From Daphnia pulex (Eukaryota > Arthropoda > Branchiopoda > Diplostraca > Daphniidae), in contig NC_060026.1 in assembly GCF_021134715.1 (NCBI RefSeq), forward strand, positions 4,712,001 to 4,776,000: a DNA stretch of 64,000 bases, in the 5' to 3' direction. The notes under the pieces are model-generated. The model saw only the letters and a program-made list of their open reading frames with translations. It was not told the origin of the DNA and ran no database searches. Positions 13,480 through 53,572 of the stretch are shown in pieces. The translations under genes were made by a program, and so were the position numbers. The number at the start of each line of letters is the position of its first letter. Positions within the stretch are counted from its first letter, which is position 1.

Positions 13480-13700
13480 TGAAAAAGATAAATTTCTCTT
13501 GAATTATGTGAGGCTATAAAATGTAATTGGTCTGATGTACATGTTTATCCTGGACAAAATCTATGTACCACATGCATTAAAGAGAAGGTGAAATTGAAAA
13601 ACAAGAAAATTGTGAAGAAATCAAAAACTTCGTCCAAATTAGATGACATGGAAGAAGCATTTGCGTGCGGGGAACATATTTAGTGATGACAACGAGGTTT
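13480..13700 (+). pseudogene. Zinc-finger-like fragment containing direct repeat copy B
   Basis: Reading + from about 13510 the frame gives ELCEAIKCNWSDVHVYPGQN, then LCTTC and a lysine-rich stretch: a Cys-x4-Cys...Cys-x2-Cys pattern, compatible with a small zinc finger. The segment 13564-13653 is identical to 1-90. A TAA stops the frame near 13490 on the left and another stop ends it soon after the repeat, so it is a fragment. Confidence 0.35.
13564..13653. repeat. 90-bp direct repeat, copy B
   Basis: Identical over 90 bases to the first 90 bases of the window, same orientation. Perfect identity in an otherwise decayed region implies a recent duplication or an active dispersed element. Confidence 0.9.
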
Positions 13701-19328: not shown

Positions 19329-19750
19329 AAATGTGAAAAAACTCGCATTTTTTTACAGAATCTAGGCATTCCATCTAATTCCCTTTAAAAATATAGAAAA
19401 AACAAGGAAAAATTATGAAAAATTTATTGGGAATTAAACAGATTTGAACTTTATGCTACTATTGTGGGAATCCACCGCTATACCCACTTAACTGTCAATC
19501 GCTTTCTTTCAATCTATTCTGACCATCGGGCAATGCAAGTCAGACACACAGGTATCCAAAGGGTGGAAAGAATCTGCAGAAATGTGGAACAAAAACCGAT
19601 ACTTACGACCCTCTGGCTAGGTACTATGGCAACAGGAAAGGGGCAGGGAACCCAAAATTGGTCCCACACAGAAGCGTATACGATGATGGGCCGTGACTAA
19701 AGTAGGCCATGCTTTTGGGAGGCTGTCACGTGACAAAAACCAAAGCCTGG

Positions 19751-21920
19751 TCTCGGGGGGTGTACGGAGAATGTTTTATTATGGGTTCGAAATAAACCAT
19801 TCTCCGTACCACCCCAGTTTTTGAAGTTCTCCGTACCACCCTATTGTTGAAATTCTCCGTACCACCCTATGTTAAGACCCAGTGCACAACGAGGCTTGAC
19901 AAGCCTCCGCTCATGGATTGCAATGAAATAAACGACTGAAATCCTCACAAATATCGGTTTATGGGGTTTAATAACAATATTTAATTTCCCTTTTAATTCT
20001 ATTAAACCTTTTTATCATTCTATCTAATTATTGTGCGATGTATTTACTATCGATTCCTAAGAATCGATAGTAAAATAAGTTGTTTGTTTGTTTACGTTTT
20101 TTTAAACATGACGTCTTTAGACGAAAGAGCAGTGCAGAAGCTCTGCAGGCATTAGTTACGCCTGAAACTTTCGAAGGAATTGCACGATGAAGCTCAACGG
20201 GAGAAGCAACGCGTAATCGATCAACGAGTTTGAATAAGCCAGGAGAAATCTAGTGCTAGGCTTGTCTGTCAACCTGAGCTGGCCTCAGGAGCTAGAGCTA
20301 TCAAGGAAGGCTCAATTAAGAAGTATCTTAACATGGTCAATGTAAGAAGTGTTGCTTTTGTTCAACTGTATTTCTGTTTTAAACAAGCTGTATTTAACTT
20401 GGTGTTTTCTTACATGTTTATAGACCTTGGAACGGAAGACCCAAAATCCCAAAAAGTCATATGGTGTAAATCCTGGCAATCTCAGACTAAGCGATTAAAT
20501 AGTTTTCATGGAAAGCATGTGCAGGTGTCATTGAATAATCATTGCCATTCCATTGTCTTATTTGATTTGTGTGAAAACCAAACAGTTTTCGTGCAGTGTC
20601 AAATGGTGTAAGTTTCATTATGAAGGTGCTGAAATCTCAGGTAGCTAAGTTCACTGGTAATCCAGAGACATAATGTTAAGTTTAAAAAGTTTATTTCAAC
20701 CACAATTATATTTTTATAGATACCCAAAGAATGCGTGTATTGCTGAATAGATAAATTTGATCGTCTCAATGAGAAGGGTGTTATCGTGACACAACCACAT
20801 TTAAATAGTGGTGTATTCCCGTGACACACACTTGGTTCAGGTTAAAGCTACTTTGCTCACCGTATTACATATTTTATTTATATCTTGTCTCTCTTTTCAT
20901 TTACAGTTCCTTTGATGAAACAAGATGGGCATGTTTGTTCGCTTCTCCGCCCGCTGAATCTTCGTTCGCAAAAGGTTAAGATTTCATGGATGAGTTTACG
21001 GAAAAGAAAAAGAACTATTGGACGAATTGTTGTCGGGCGTAGAGGCGTTTGAAGAAGGAGACTTCGGATATGCCACTGAAGCAACTGAAGATGGCGATTC
21101 GGACGCCTTAGCCATCAACAAATTACTATTATTTTCTTTTGCAAGTCTGTAGGCTAATGCATGAACCAATTTATTCCATACAAATATTAAACTGAACTCT
21201 CCAGTGTTTTACTTCAAGTTGCTCGAAGGAAGGTTTTGAAGTGCCGATAAATATAATGACCGACTCGTCGGATGTCTACTGGTACTGGGGCAGTCTATTT
21301 TCGTTACCTTATGGTTTTGAGTCTAATTCTGGGTTAATAAATGGTGACAAACCGATAAAAGCATCTATCTATATGAGAACTACATCTCGCCTGAATTTCA
21401 ATAAATTCCCGTCAGGGAAATCTGCCGAAAATGAGGCTCAAAGATGATTTTCTTGGAATTTTAGCCGCCAAGAAGCTGGATTTTATTTAAATTTAGGGAT
21501 AAATAGCTAATCAAAAATAGTTTTTATAAGTGAAAAAGATAGAGTATAAGAAGGACAACAACATACTGAAAATTGAGCAACTTTCTTTGGCTTATAAGAT
21601 ACGAATAGGGGTAAAAACGCCAGCCGTAGAGCGTGCGGAAGTAAAAATTCTTTGGCCGTTGATTACACATACGTGTGTACATATTATGCTGATTCTGAAT
21701 GCATATTTCGATTCAGCGTAAAAAGTTGAGATAGAGGTGTAATTTTCATCCATATTGGTGGTCAGCCGCATAGTAGCGTGCGTGAAAATAAAAATTCGTT
21801 CACAGTTAATTACCCATTCGTGTGTTCATTTTAGGCTTATTACGACCTGATATTTCGATTCAAGGTAAAAAGTTGAGTCTAGGGTGTAATTTTCATTCTT
21901 TTTGGGAGTAGCCTGCGGGA
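19751..21920 (+). repeat. Left arm of the palindrome
   Basis: About 2.17 kb. It contains three copies of TTCTCCGTACCACCC at 19800, 19827 and 19853, a 32-bp near-palindrome at 20043-20074, broken coding-like pieces (about 20110-20330 and 20980-21110), and two diverged tandem units of about 145 bp (from about 21634 and 21778), each ending GGTGTAATTTTCAT. A 63-codon frame at 21530-21721 has a nearly identical twin in the other arm, evidence of arm identity rather than of a gene. Confidence 0.85.
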
Positions 21921-22027
21921 GTTATTAGTTTACGACTTGTTTTTTTTTAAGGGAAAAAGCGCAGCAACTCGCATACGTTAACAGGGCGGACTTTTTTCGG
22001 AAAAAAGTTTGATCGCAAAAAATTCAA

Positions 22028-24312
22028 TCCCGCAGGCTACCGCCAAAATGAATGAAAATTACACCCTAGACTCAACTTTTTACCCTGAATCGAAATATCA
22101 GGTCGTAATAAGCCTAAAATGAACACACGTATGGGTATTTAACTGTGAACGAATTTTAATTTCACGCACGCTACTATGCGGCTGACCACCAATATGGATG
22201 AAAATTACACCTCTATCTCAACTTTTTACGCTGAATCGAAATATGCATTCAGAATCAGCATAATATGTACACACGTATGTGTAATCAACGGCCAAAGAAT
22301 TTTTACTTCCGCGCGCTCTACGGCTGGCGTTTTTACCCCTATTCGTATCTTATAAGCCAAAGAAAGTTGCCCAATTTTCAGTATGTTGTTGTCCTTTATA
22401 TTGTCTATCTTTATCACTAATTAAAACTATTTTTGATTAGCTAGTAACCCCTCAACTAAATTAAAAACCAGCTTCTTGTGCTAAAATCCCAAGAAAATAA
22501 ACTTTGAGCCTCATTTTCGGTAGATTTCCCTGACGGGAATTTATTAAATTTCATGCGAGATGTAGTTCTCATATTGATAGATGCTTCTATCGGTTCGCTA
22601 TATTTTATTTACGCAGAATTACGCTAAAAACCATAAGGGAACGAAAATAGACTGCCCTAGTCGACATCCGACGAGTCGGCCATTATCGCACTCCAAAACC
22701 TTCCTTCGAGCAAATTGAAGTAAAAACACTGGAGAGTTCAGTTTAATATTTGTATGCAATAGATTATTGGTTCATGCATAATACAGACTTCCAAAACAAA
22801 ATTTAGTAATTTGTTGATGGAGTAGACGTGAGCTCGTCTAAGGCATCCGAATCGCAACCTTCACTTGCTTAAGTGGCATATCCGAAGTCTCCTTCTTCAA
22901 ACTCCTCTAAACTCCTCTACGCCCGTCACCAATTCGTCCAATAGTTCTTCTTCTTTTCCGTAAACTCATCCGTGAAATCTTCCCATTGTGCGAACGGAGA
23001 TTCAGCGGGTGGAGAAGCAAACAAACATGGGCATCTCGTTCTGGTTTTTGAACAATTGCTTACTTATATCGTAGAATTAACATCTGTGCATCAATGAACA
23101 CATCGTTCGATCAAAGGAACTGTAAATGAAAAGAGAGACAAGATATAAATAAAATATGTAATACGGTGAGCAAAGTAGCTTCTACCTTGAACCAAGTGTG
23201 TGTTACGGAAATATACTACTATCTAAATGTGGTTGTGTCACGATAACACCCTTCTCATTGATTTGTGACGATCAAATTTATTTTGTCAATATGCGCCTTT
23301 TTTGGGTATCTATACAAATATAATTTTGGTTGAAATAAACATTTTAAACTTAACGTCTCTGGATTACCAGTGAACTACCTGAGATTTCAGCATCTTCATT
23401 ATATAACTTACACCATTTGACACTGCACGAAAACTGTTTGGTTTTCACACAAATCAAATAAGATAATGGAATGGCAATGATTATTCAATAACAACAGCAC
23501 ATGATGCTTGTCATGAAGACTATTTAATCGCTTAGTCTAATTGCTAGGATTTCCACTGTCTGACTTCTTGGGATTTTGGGTCTTCCGTTCCAAGTACTTG
23601 GTCTATAAACATGTAAGAAAAGACCAAGTTAAATACAGATTGTTTTTACAAAGAAATATAGTTGAACAAAAGTTACACTTCTTACATGGACCATATTAAG
23701 ATGGATACTTCTTTTGAGCATCTCTTGAGAACTCTCGCTCCTGAGGCCAGCTCAGGTGGACCAGCAAGCCTGCTAGCACCAGATTTCCCCTGGCTTATTC
23801 TTACTCGTCGATCGATTATTCGTTGTTTCTCCCTTTGGTATTCTTCAAGCTGCGTATAGCAATTCCTTCGAAAATTTCAGGCGTAACTAATGCCTGCAGA
23901 GCTTCAGCACTGCTCTTTCGTCTAAAGACGTCATCGTTTAAAAAAACGTAAACAAACAAGTCCTGTTGTCTGCACCCAAACAACTTATTTTACTATCGAT
24001 TCTTAGGAATCGATAGTAAATACATCGCACAATAATTATATAGAATGATAAAAAGGTTTAATAGAATTAAAAGGGAAATTAAATATTGTTATTAAACCCC
24101 ATAAACCGATATTTGTGAGGATTTCAGTCGTTTATTTCATTGCAATCCATGAGCGGAGGCTTGTCAAGCCTCGTTGTGCACTGGTCTTAACATAGGGTGG
24201 TACGGAGAATTTCAACAATAGGGTGGTACGGAGAACTTAAAAAACTGGGGTGGTACGGAGAATGGTTTATTTCGAACCCATAATAAAAAATTTCTCCGTA
24301 CACCCCCCGAGA
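22028..24312 (-). repeat. Right arm of the palindrome
   Basis: Reverse-complement copy of the left arm, about 115 bp longer through small insertions (for example near 23040-23110 and 23960-23980). It carries the same landmarks in mirror order: tandem 145-bp units, the 32-bp near-palindrome at 23989-24020, and three GGGTGGTACGGAGAA repeats at about 24193-24263. Confidence 0.85.
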
Positions 24313-24563
24313 CTATGTTGAGAAACATAGTAAATACGTGCTCAAAACTAAAATGTTAACCCATAATAATACCATGATGACCAAATAACCTTTCCAATGA
24401 TTCAACAATCAACAATCGTAATACTTAAAGACATAAACTCAACGTTTTCTTAATTTAAGAGACGAAGAGACGACGATTGCTTTCACAAGGGTGGTTGGCG
24501 TATATTCAATTTTACATGGCAACTGCGCATATGAACATGGCAACGTTGTTAACCGTGTTTTTG

Positions 24564-29885: not shown

Positions 29886-30047
29886 TATAGGGCTCTTCGG
29901 GATCTGTTTTATTTAGCCGATTTATCTGGCAACGCAGCATGGCTCTAGACTTATTTCGAACAATAATGTAAAGTCAAAAATTTTTGCTTCTGAATCCAAA
30001 CAGCAAGGCTCTACTGTTTTGACTAAAGTGTTTCTTGTGTGTTGAAA
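29886..30047 (+). repeat. Left terminal inverted repeat, 162 bp
   Basis: Pairs with 31602-31763 (reverse complement). Differences are few, for example TTTAGCCG against TTTACCCG and GTAAAGTC against GTAATGTC. The THAP start codon lies 24 bp inside its inner edge. Confidence 0.92.
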
Positions 30048-31601: not shown

Positions 31602-31763
31602 TTTCAACACACAAGAAACACTTTAGTCAAAACAGTAGAGCCTTGCTGTTTGGATTCAGAAGCAAAAATTTTTGACATTACATTATTGTTCGAAATAAGT
31701 CTAGAGCCATGCTGCGTTGCCAGATAAATCGGGTAAATAAAACAGATCCCGAAGAGCCCTATA
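31602..31763 (-). repeat. Right terminal inverted repeat, 162 bp
   Basis: Reverse complement of 29886-30047. The ATG of the SWIM fragment lies just inside it at 31576. Confidence 0.92.
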
Positions 31764-48265: not shown

Positions 48266-49169
48266 TTACCAGCACTTTTTGATACTAACGAGCGGAATGG
48301 ACTCAGAGTCGATTGCATTTAAAAATTCTACAGGAGTTGCTATGGCTGCCAAAAGAAGCGCAATAACATCAGCCTCAGCTTCGTGTGACATTGGAGGCTT
48401 TTCGCCATAAACTCTTTCGTACACGTCCTCTAATCGAAATGGTAATCGTTTCCTGCATTTCGGTTCGCCATTTCTGTTTCCATATTGTTCATTAACTTTC
48501 CTCTTTTCGGGCGTTTTCTCATTTATAAGTTGAAAGGGGTTAACATTGTTTGACACAGGAAGGGGATCAGCGAAATTCGTCATAACTGTTGGGCACGCGA
48601 AGTCCATGATGGCGATTGTTGAAGGGTTATTTTGTAATTTTCGAAAGATTATTAATGAATCGGCACAAAAGATTCCTCCGGGTAATTCCTATGATTTTTA
48701 CAGATACATAAAAAAAATTTAGGATTTTTTTTTTTAAATAAAGACAAAATGATTGCTTAAAATTTACCTTTCCCAATTTTGCTATTTCAGACCTGAGAAT
48801 AGGAAAATCAAAATTATATCCATTATGAGCAATCAGACAGATTGGTTTCTTTAGCCTGTTCAGGAAACTGTAGATAAGATTGAAAACATCTTCGTCAAAT
48901 CTGCTTTGATGTTCCAAGTTGTAGTTGTCAAGTTTTGTTTTGTTGGTGGCCTCTGGATCAACAAGTCTGGAGGGGTAAATACAAAGGTTCAAACGATTTG
49001 TGACACGTGGCATCGCTTTGGGTTGGCCATTAAGAAATTGGTGTCTCTCAACAGCACAAAAAGATAGTTCTGTTATTTTTGGACAATGATATGCAGGAAG
49101 CCCTGTGGTTTCAAGATCGAAAAACACAAGACTGTTGTATGTTTGTGGGGTATCCAAATCACAAGACAT
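48266..49169 (-). CDS. TREX: TREX-type 3'-5' DNA exonuclease
   Basis: Two exons, 48768-49169 and 48266-48688, join in phase 0 (GTAAAT donor, CATAG acceptor) for 274 aa. All three DEDDh exonuclease motifs are present: Exo I FFDLETTGLP (residues about 16-25) followed by KITELSFCAV, Exo II LIAHNGYNFDFPIL, and Exo III SHEAEADV with the catalytic His and Asp. ELPGGIFCADSLIIFRKL after the junction is typical of TREX1/TREX2, which degrade DNA 3' ends in the cytosol and nucleus. It lacks the long C-terminal membrane tail of mammalian TREX1, so it is TREX2-like in length plus a Lys/Arg-rich insert (RKVNEQYGNRNGEPKCRKR) that could localise it. Start chosen at the first ATG of the frame. Confidence 0.9.
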
Positions 49170-49199
49170 ATTAAGTTAAAAAGTGGGATCAAATGTATA

Positions 49200-51560: not shown

Positions 51561-53572
51561 ATGGAAAATTTTCTTAGAAAATCAAAAGCCAAATTGGTAT
51601 GTTCTCCTTTCTTGAAAACTTTCTAGACACTTTATTTTTACTCTCTGTACTGTTTTTCATTAATTGACTAATTCCATACTCATCTTTTGATTGGCAGTCT
51701 GAAATTGAATCACTTGATAGTGTTTGCATCATTCTTGGGAATGAATCCTGTGATTTAGACTCAGCAGTCTGTGCCTTAATTTTTGCATACTTTTTGGAAC
51801 AACAGAAAAAGTTTGCTTCTGTTCACCTTCCTGTTCTCAACGTAGCTAAAGAAGAATTCATCCTGAAGACTGAAGTTGTTTATTTCCTAAAAAGGTGTAT
51901 TGAATTAATGATAAATTTAAAATAAAATAAAATACCATTACTTTTTAATAGGTTTAACATTTCGTCTGAGCTGCTCATATTTCGGTAGGTTTTGTGTCTC
52001 TTCAAGGTCAATGAAAGATAATGCATTGGGTAATAATATTACTCCATTGTTTATTTTAGAGATGAAATCTGCTTCAAGTCATTGCAACAAAATAGAAAGT
52101 TGAAACTTGTTTTGGTAGGGTTTGTTTGTTGCTTGGCTGTGTGTCCTTTTGTTTGTATTAAATTGAATAATAATTGTTTTCTTGACAGGTGGATCACAAT
52201 ATTTTGCCAAATTCAGATTTCTTCCTAGATTCATCAATTGTTCAAATAGTTGATCACCACAAACAAGAACATCCCTTTTCAGAGAATATTGACATGCTGA
52301 TTGAAACTGTTGGTTCTTGCAGTACTCTGATAAGTTCACTTATTTTTGAAAGTGCACCAGAAATTTTAGATACCATTTCTGCTTCACTTCTACTTGGTAA
52401 GTGGTAAAATTAAGTATATAAACTGAATCAAGTAAACTTTAAAATATTTTGTACTATAGGGGCTATTGTAGTAGATGTGGCAAATTTTTCTCCAACTGCT
52501 AAAAGGGCCACTGCTAAAGATGAAGAAATCTTTAATAAATTATTGAAACTGGTACCAAACATATCCAAAGACATCCTATATAGGGAGCTTCAGTGCGCAA
52601 AGGAAGACGTTTCCAATCTCACATTTGAACAATTGTGCCAAAAAGACCGAAAAATCATCGAAATTGGTGGCATTATCCTTCCCGTTTGTGGATTTCCATT
52701 CCTTTGCTCTACATTGCTCGCAAAACATTCAGATCTTGCTAGCAAGCTGCAGGGTTTTTGTTCAGTTTTGAACTGTCATGGAACAGTGTTGATGGGCATT
52801 TCGATAGATGAAGAAACCGACATCGTTAAGCGCGATCTTGTTGTGTATTCACACCTTGCATGGTTGAAAAATAGGGTATTATTTTCATTTTAAGAATTCT
52901 TTAACTAACCTATGATAAACAATGTTTTTATTATTAGTTATGCCGGGAACTAGAAAAGGCCGATGATCCCCATTTAGATCTTCATGTCGTTAAATCTAAT
53001 GCCGAATATGTTTACTACAATCAAGGAAACACTACAGCAACTCGTAAAGCTATTCTTCCCATGTTGAAAAATATTTTGTCGAAACCGGAGTCGACAAATA
53101 GTACATTTTCTCAACGTGGGGAAAGAAGCCTAAGTATCTCTAATGTGGTAAGATAAGAAGTGTTTAAATCATCATCACTCTCATCAATCATCACTACTCA
53201 TAATTCACCATATCGGTTATATTTCAGGATGGAAGTCCCGAGGACAGCTCATCTAATTCAGGAATTGACACCCCAACTAACAGTTGTAATGGCGATGATG
53301 AAGAAGTTCAACATTCATCAGCGGCTGTGAAGTTGTCAGAGTTTCATGCTGGGGACGTGTTTGCAAGCAAGGAGTCAAAGAAGTATTTGTCATTTCGCCA
53401 ACAGGGCGGTGAACTTCAAAGGGGAGAAAGAGATCCTCTTACTCCCGAAAATAGTTTTGCCGAAAGTCACTTCGATCAATCGTACCGAAAGTTTGTGCTC
53501 AATCATATGGATTCTGATGCTATCATGGAAAAACTTCGCAAAGAGAATTTCTTTCGAGAAGCGGACGAATGA
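51561..53572 (+). CDS. pn: Prune, DHH-family exopolyphosphatase
   Basis: Eight exons, 51561-51596, 51698-51894, 51952-51984, 52060-52114, 52189-52396, 52460-52875, 52938-53147 and 53228-53572, chain in frame for 499 aa. Prune hydrolyses short-chain polyphosphate and cyclic nucleotides with two metal ions. Motifs in order: NESCDLDSAVCA (motif I), LVDHNILPNS (II), IVDHHKQEHP (III, the DHH), ETVGSCSTL (IV), then the DHHA2 domain from about residue 215 (LLGAIVVDVANFSPTAKRAT onward). The C-terminal 115 residues are Ser/Asp/Glu-rich with a conserved-looking end (YRKFVLNHMDSDAIMEKLRK). Stop TGA at 53570. The next gene on the same strand is a BCH-domain gene; vertebrate PRUNE2 carries both domains in one protein. 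Confidence 0.94.

Follow-up and report, generated by a model that had tools for sequence, protein, structure and literature searches.

The KDZ (Kyakuja-Dileera-Zisupton) DNA transposons include Zisupton, for which 8-bp target-site duplications are described, and Kyakuja, whose termini are CA..TG (both from excerpts of PMC12730594). KDZ is not among the ten superfamilies tabulated in the excerpted text of a study surveying the DNA transposons found in Daphnia pulex (PMC2884549), and Zisupton is named once, for a wasp, in the excerpted text of an arthropod survey (PMC6327564). A literature search covering open-licence papers found no KDZ foldback. Foldback forms are described for other superfamilies. 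Galileo (P superfamily, Drosophila) occurs in foldback-like forms, and the terminal repeats of one copy are 98 to 100% alike; its longer repeats, which arise by the recruitment of internal sequence, have been explained by repair from the repeat of another copy (excerpts of PMC3573991). The Drosophila Foldback element FB4 (excerpts of PMC4022104) and, reportedly, Tetris and Tm1 (Mutator/Foldback) are non-autonomous and have long inverted terminal repeats and a central loop.

Here we describe an element of this shape in a 64,000-nucleotide stretch of Daphnia pulex contig NC_060026.1 (positions 4,712,001 to 4,776,000, referred to as the window; positions below are those of the window unless a locus is named). 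It is probably an ancient foldback element, non-autonomous, that arose from a KDZ (Zisupton-like) DNA transposon. The likeness to Zisupton and its KDZ relatives lies in the 8-bp duplications of related copies (5 of 8 bases alike at the window copy), in CA..TG termini, and in a core and tip style shared with L070, an element of the same genome that encodes both PF18758 and PF18804. The window copy differs from these elements in having no KDZ domain and in being a palindrome of one half. Unlike Galileo, which has a transposase of another superfamily, the family of the window element has as its mirror axis a conserved asymmetric core common to the full element. Unlike FB4, Tetris, and Tm1, the window element has arms with recognizable remnants of a KDZ transposase exon.

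Results

A blastn self-comparison of the window returned an inverted repeat at 19750-24313 with an arm length of about 2.2 kb. Compared with each other by blastn, the arms aligned in an outer block (88.0% identity over 1222 columns) and an inner block (85.6% over 2178 columns), each well outside chance expectation (E = 0.0). When the halves were aligned globally, 1973 of 2138 aligned bases were identical (92.3%), with 165 substitutions and 302 gap columns. The 107-bp center at 21926-22032 does not pair (ungapped self-complement identity of 32/107), and the tips begin TCTCGGGGGGTGTACGG. The foldback architecture of the original prediction is thus confirmed in its arm length, unpaired center, and tips, and these data support a non-autonomous foldback (long-TIR) element. 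The identities and gaps given above do not agree with the description of the palindrome as near perfect.

Alignment of the flanks of tip copies revealed that the 8 bp outside TCTCGG recur across other copies, reading CAGCCTGG at one end and CAACATAG at the opposite end. On the basis of these recurring bases, the element most likely extends some 8 bp beyond the repeat on each side, to 19743 and 24320, which gives a foldback of 4578 bp from tip to tip and an end pair for the family written CAGCCTGG...CTATGTTG. The left arm (19743..21925, plus strand) has the L-type tip, which reads CAGCCTGG in other copies and is mutated to AAGCCTGG here; the right arm (22033..24320, minus strand) has the R-type tip CAACATAG. 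The window tips, CARCMTRGTCTCGG, resemble CAACTTGATCTCGG; the tip is similar to that of L070. The flanking 8-mers, AAAAACCA and AGAAACAT, agree at 5 of 8 positions, which we read as a target-site duplication that has decayed. A subterminal inverted repeat is found at the left tip (19755..19815, plus strand), where 19757-19815 is 80% identical to its own reverse complement. It is followed by TTCTCCGTACCACCC repeats to about 19870, and both features are mirrored at approximately 24187-24312. The core (21621..22330) contains direct and inverted repeat units of about 145 bp that surround the unpaired loop (21926..22032); with its 10-bp edges, this loop matches the L070 loop at 107 of 127 bases.

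Other features were recorded in the window. A second inverted repeat (29886-30047 and 31602-31763) has 162-bp arms that are 98.8% identical, lie 1554 bp apart, and have the tips TATAGGGCTCTTCGGGATC; they may mark the termini of a different DNA transposon. Positions 1-90 and 13564-13653 form an exact 90-bp direct repeat about 13.5 kb apart. Two ORFs, one with an RNase_T/exonuclease domain (48630-49175, minus strand, E 9.8e-07) and one with a DHHA2 domain (52414-52890, plus strand, E 4.3e-08), are likely host genes. A scan of the window with Rfam at gathering scores gave 0 matches.

One window arm used as a query had at least 109 matches in its own genome, many of which fall in the core, in elements whose arms bear no resemblance to those of the window. 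The window tip had 14 matches. One relative with both tips, L032, has CTAGAATC on each flank (8/8), while the flanking duplication of a short relative, L061, is 3/8; both of these copies, like the window element, combine an L-type tip with an R-type one. The genome also contains single-arm copies, L031 and L036; the tip of L031 is L-type, and the L032 arm that was compared has the R-type tip. A single unpaired arm existing as an ordinary gene had been named in the original prediction as an observation that would count against it. Single-arm copies do exist, but the arm consists of broken transposase remnants and is not a recognizable host gene.

In a tree built from whole arms, the left window arm grouped with L031 and L036 (support 92/97) and the right window arm with L032b and L033b (support 97/98). 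A whole-arm tree holding both window arms together was rejected (p-AU 0.00098), and the same constraint on columns 400-1200, a range chosen after inspection, gave a p-AU of 2e-5. Along the alignment, the outer 360 to 400 or so columns and the core of the two arms are 95 to 99% alike. In the mid-arm, seven of nine 200-column bins are at 86 to 91% and two are at 93 to 95%, with many indels. This pattern is what would be expected of an old palindrome whose two arms belong to separate, long-lived lineages and not of a recent formation. Because its duplication is degraded (5/8) and the sister-arm tree is rejected, we conclude that the window copy is older than its related palindromes.

Arms that are not each other's closest relatives, the existence of single-arm copies, and a poor duplication are also compatible with two single-arm elements of one family having inserted head to head, which would make the palindrome an insertion accident. 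We consider such an accident unlikely because the arms meet at the core loop, which is also the center of related foldbacks. Moreover, the L-type and R-type tip pairing recurs in L061 and in L032, the latter with a perfect 8-bp duplication, and the outer ends and core of both arms are 95 to 99% alike.

The D. pulex genome contains 20 KDZ and 49 CxC3 matches with E values of 0.001 or better. L070 is a KDZ element of 7900 bp with identical ends of 123 bp and a perfect 8-bp target-site duplication, AATGTGAT. It encodes CxC3 (PF18804, E 3.2e-27) and KDZ (PF18758, E 1.1e-17) on one strand, and it is ordered as tip, genes of the other half, core, convergent transposase gene, and tip. In this gene's reading direction, its acidic C-terminal ORF is followed by the core. 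The ORFs of the non-transposase half matched no Pfam family above the cut-off, and directly repeated units of about 340 bp lie in tandem at 1151-2107 of L070 in this half. Another element carrying both domains (C8:1.185M, covered by L042 and L071) likewise has the core immediately past the end of its transposase ORFs. The window core matches that of L070 at 83.8% in the matching orientation versus 79.7% when flipped. This one core is found mid-element in other foldbacks and beside the 3′ transposase end in L070 and L042/L071. Additional inverted-repeat elements with pieces of the core or arm in different surroundings were seen at L034 (1742-2708) and L049 (1704-2640).

The window arms carry coding remnants with stops. 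Remnants of an upstream coding segment, possibly of KDZ type, lie at 20083..20263 (plus strand) in the left arm and at 23775..23978 (minus strand) in the right arm; in L044, a relative of this segment has an open frame of 77 aa. A remnant of the C-terminal KDZ transposase exon, homologous to the L070 transposase exon, lies at 20768..20854 in the left arm (plus strand, NEKGVIVTQPHLNSGVFPxH), and the remnant of the same exon in the right arm lies at 23200..23259 (minus strand). The L070 version of this exon scored 69 and 54 in the window arms, where shuffle maxima were 48 and 45 (0/200 shuffles in each case), and matched the window by tblastn with an E value of 4.5e-4; a query taken from the relative L037 matched both L070-type loci with an E value of 0.02. 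Relative to the core, the exon has the side, order, and orientation found in L070.

The exon after the C-terminal one is clear in the relatives L037 and L033 when compared with the C8 element (0/200 shuffles each). In the window, a probable remnant of it (IDAQML..., 23063..23095, minus strand) was read by eye in the right arm only, where the shuffle test was not significant. A left-arm remnant that precedes the core (20994..21152, plus strand) resembles the gene's acidic C-terminal stretch, with a likeness to L070 in composition and place only. In the two window arms, the scores of the following exon were reached by many shuffles (99 and 107 of 200 for exon 2 of L070, 86 and 59 for exon 2 of the C8 element), as were those of exon 1 of the C8 element (22 and 71). 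The coding link from the window to KDZ consists of one exon of about 20 to 29 aa plus order and position.

The original prediction also held that the element has no intact transposase. This stands as far as it was tested, as no Pfam family scored above the cut-off in ten ORFs of the window arms and core and the coding remnants are broken by stops. The best Pfam score, for ArfA (E 0.092), was taken as chance. KDZ and CxC3 domains were absent from the window arms both in the Pfam search of ORFs and among the KDZ/CxC3 profile matches of the genome. In each arm, what remains of a KDZ transposase gene is riddled with stops. The window copy probably stems from a KDZ family related to that of L070, with the transposase remnants of that family in its arms.

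CA...TG ends and 8-bp duplications fit the P superfamily as well, to which the foldback-forming Galileo belongs. They also fit hAT (excerpts of PMC12730594). The element might thus be a foldback of another superfamily with 8-bp duplications, such as hAT or P, that gained its core by exchange with a KDZ element. This is very unlikely given that the core and the KDZ exon occur in the order and orientation of L070 and that the window tip is L070-like.

With a KDZ derivation, a KDZ transposase becomes the best candidate for the mobilizer of the window element, which had been called unknown. Yet no KDZ or CxC3 match was found within 79 kb of any of the 14 scored tip matches; the nearest lies 79 kb from one tip match and at least 155 kb from the remaining ones.

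The tip of L069 used as a query had 60 matches in the genome, among which are 11 opposed full-length tip pairs with a spacing of 3.0 to 5.2 kb. Six of the 11 pairs (L048, L065, L066, L067, L068, and L069) and one 7.9-kb element (L070) were read, and the five other tip pairs are inferred from coordinates alone. Two further pairs, at C1:391k and C1:487k, are 7.9 kb apart with a likeness that is shorter on one side, and they seem to be duplicates of a single region. Equal scores at constant spacing were seen for the match pairs at C1:391k/C1:487k (about 96 kb) and C2:10.96M/C2:11.15M (194 kb), which suggests segmental duplications or assembly duplicates.

Each of the six palindromes read mirrors one half of L070 about the core. 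L048, L066, L067, and L069 correspond to L070 7938-6855 joined to 4377-core and mirrored, and a 30-base deletion junction is exact in all eight of their arms; this junction was not found in L068, L065, or L070. L068 is the same kind of palindrome with different internal junctions, and L065 has the other half of L070 mirrored behind the transposase-side tip. The center of the core coincides with the center of the element within 2 bp in four of the six and is off by 78 bp in L069 and 32 bp in L065. Perfect 8-bp target-site duplications flank all seven elements of the L070 family (the six palindromes and L070), indicating that the six moved as palindromes. Separate non-palindromic parents for each of L048, L066, L067, and L069 were thought less likely because of the shared deletion junction and because no non-palindromic carrier was present among the loci read. 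The flipped core of L067 was considered as a sign of crossing over between arms, and this idea was dropped because a palindrome inserting in either orientation looks identical.

Tip-side arms are 99.8 to 100% identical within one copy (525 to 1040 bp compared, six palindromes) and 4 to 10% apart between copies, with the exception of L066 and L067 at 0.6%. Three of the six show a drop in identity to 80 to 85% at the edge of the core. The arms of L066 first differ at position 1322, at the core start (core matches from 1305). The first two mismatches of L067 are at 172 and 1340 (core matches from 1263), and those of L068 are at 964 and 1021 (core matches from 1022). A clean step at the core edge is absent in the other three: L048 has seven mismatch columns at 1126-1188, ahead of the core (from 1294), with the next mismatch at 1505, and long gaps separate the two arms from 735 onward in L069 and from 560 onward in L065. 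The two sides of the core are 80 to 85% alike in most 150-column bins of L066, L067, and L068 and 85 to 90% alike in L069. Across these four palindromes, the same core side is 94 to 97% alike, versus 79 to 81% when flipped. Since same-side likeness exceeds flipped likeness, the asymmetry of the core in these copies is ancestral, and the arms were made or kept identical in each copy. The original prediction had attributed high arm identity in the window copy to recent formation, homogenization, or selection. This does not hold for that copy, with arms about 92% identical and a rejected sister-arm tree, and homogenization or re-formation of the arms is indicated in the six related palindromes.

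The divergence profile of the window arms also bears on whether the locus is a functional hairpin, a source of siRNA with arms under selection. Although the long arms could pair if transcribed and about 360 outer columns and the core are 95 to 99% alike, the mid-arm is at 86 to 91% in seven of nine bins with many indels, as decay would give, and transposase binding or conversion also explains the likeness of tip and core, making such a function highly improbable. Long palindromes are hard to assemble, but an assembly artifact (an inverted chimeric read or collapsed haplotypes) is scarcely credible here, because the arms differ at 165 aligned bases and 302 gap columns, group with different other copies, so that their separate lineages rule out one arm read twice, and have related palindromes with perfect target-site duplications.

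Discussion

A foldback derived from a KDZ transposon best explains the window element. Our confidence in this explanation was lowered by the three of six palindromes without a clean identity step, and it remains high. For the mirroring, we infer a mechanism that would begin at the core, where inverted repeats would let DNA synthesis fold back during gap repair or replication. The folded-back synthesis would copy one half outward again and yield a palindrome ending in a functional tip on either side, which a KDZ transposase could then move in trans. Conversion from arm to arm would keep the arms identical and would tend to stop at the diverged core repeats, which would explain the identity step at the core edge. 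In the window copy, the arms would have diverged before the sister copies separated and conversion in the mid-arm would have lapsed, leaving what is now a decaying fossil.

A broader proposal is tentative, and we regard it as rather doubtful. The KDZ core may be a built-in fold-back switch that has repeatedly made palindromic parasites from either half of the element, with arms rewritten from one another, from the tip to approximately the core edge, whenever a copy transposes or at some later point. Arms would then be identical within a copy, with most copies 4 to 10% apart.

How foldback transposons originate and how the likeness of their arms is kept up is an old question. In the D. pulex genome, a full KDZ element occurs together with palindromes that derive from one or the other of its halves and share a mirror axis, and three of the six palindromes read have a sharp identity step; this combination makes template-switch and arm-conversion models directly testable. 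The window copy itself is an ordinary fossil, and the interest lies in the related family, in which KDZ relatives give the window element a probable mobilizer.
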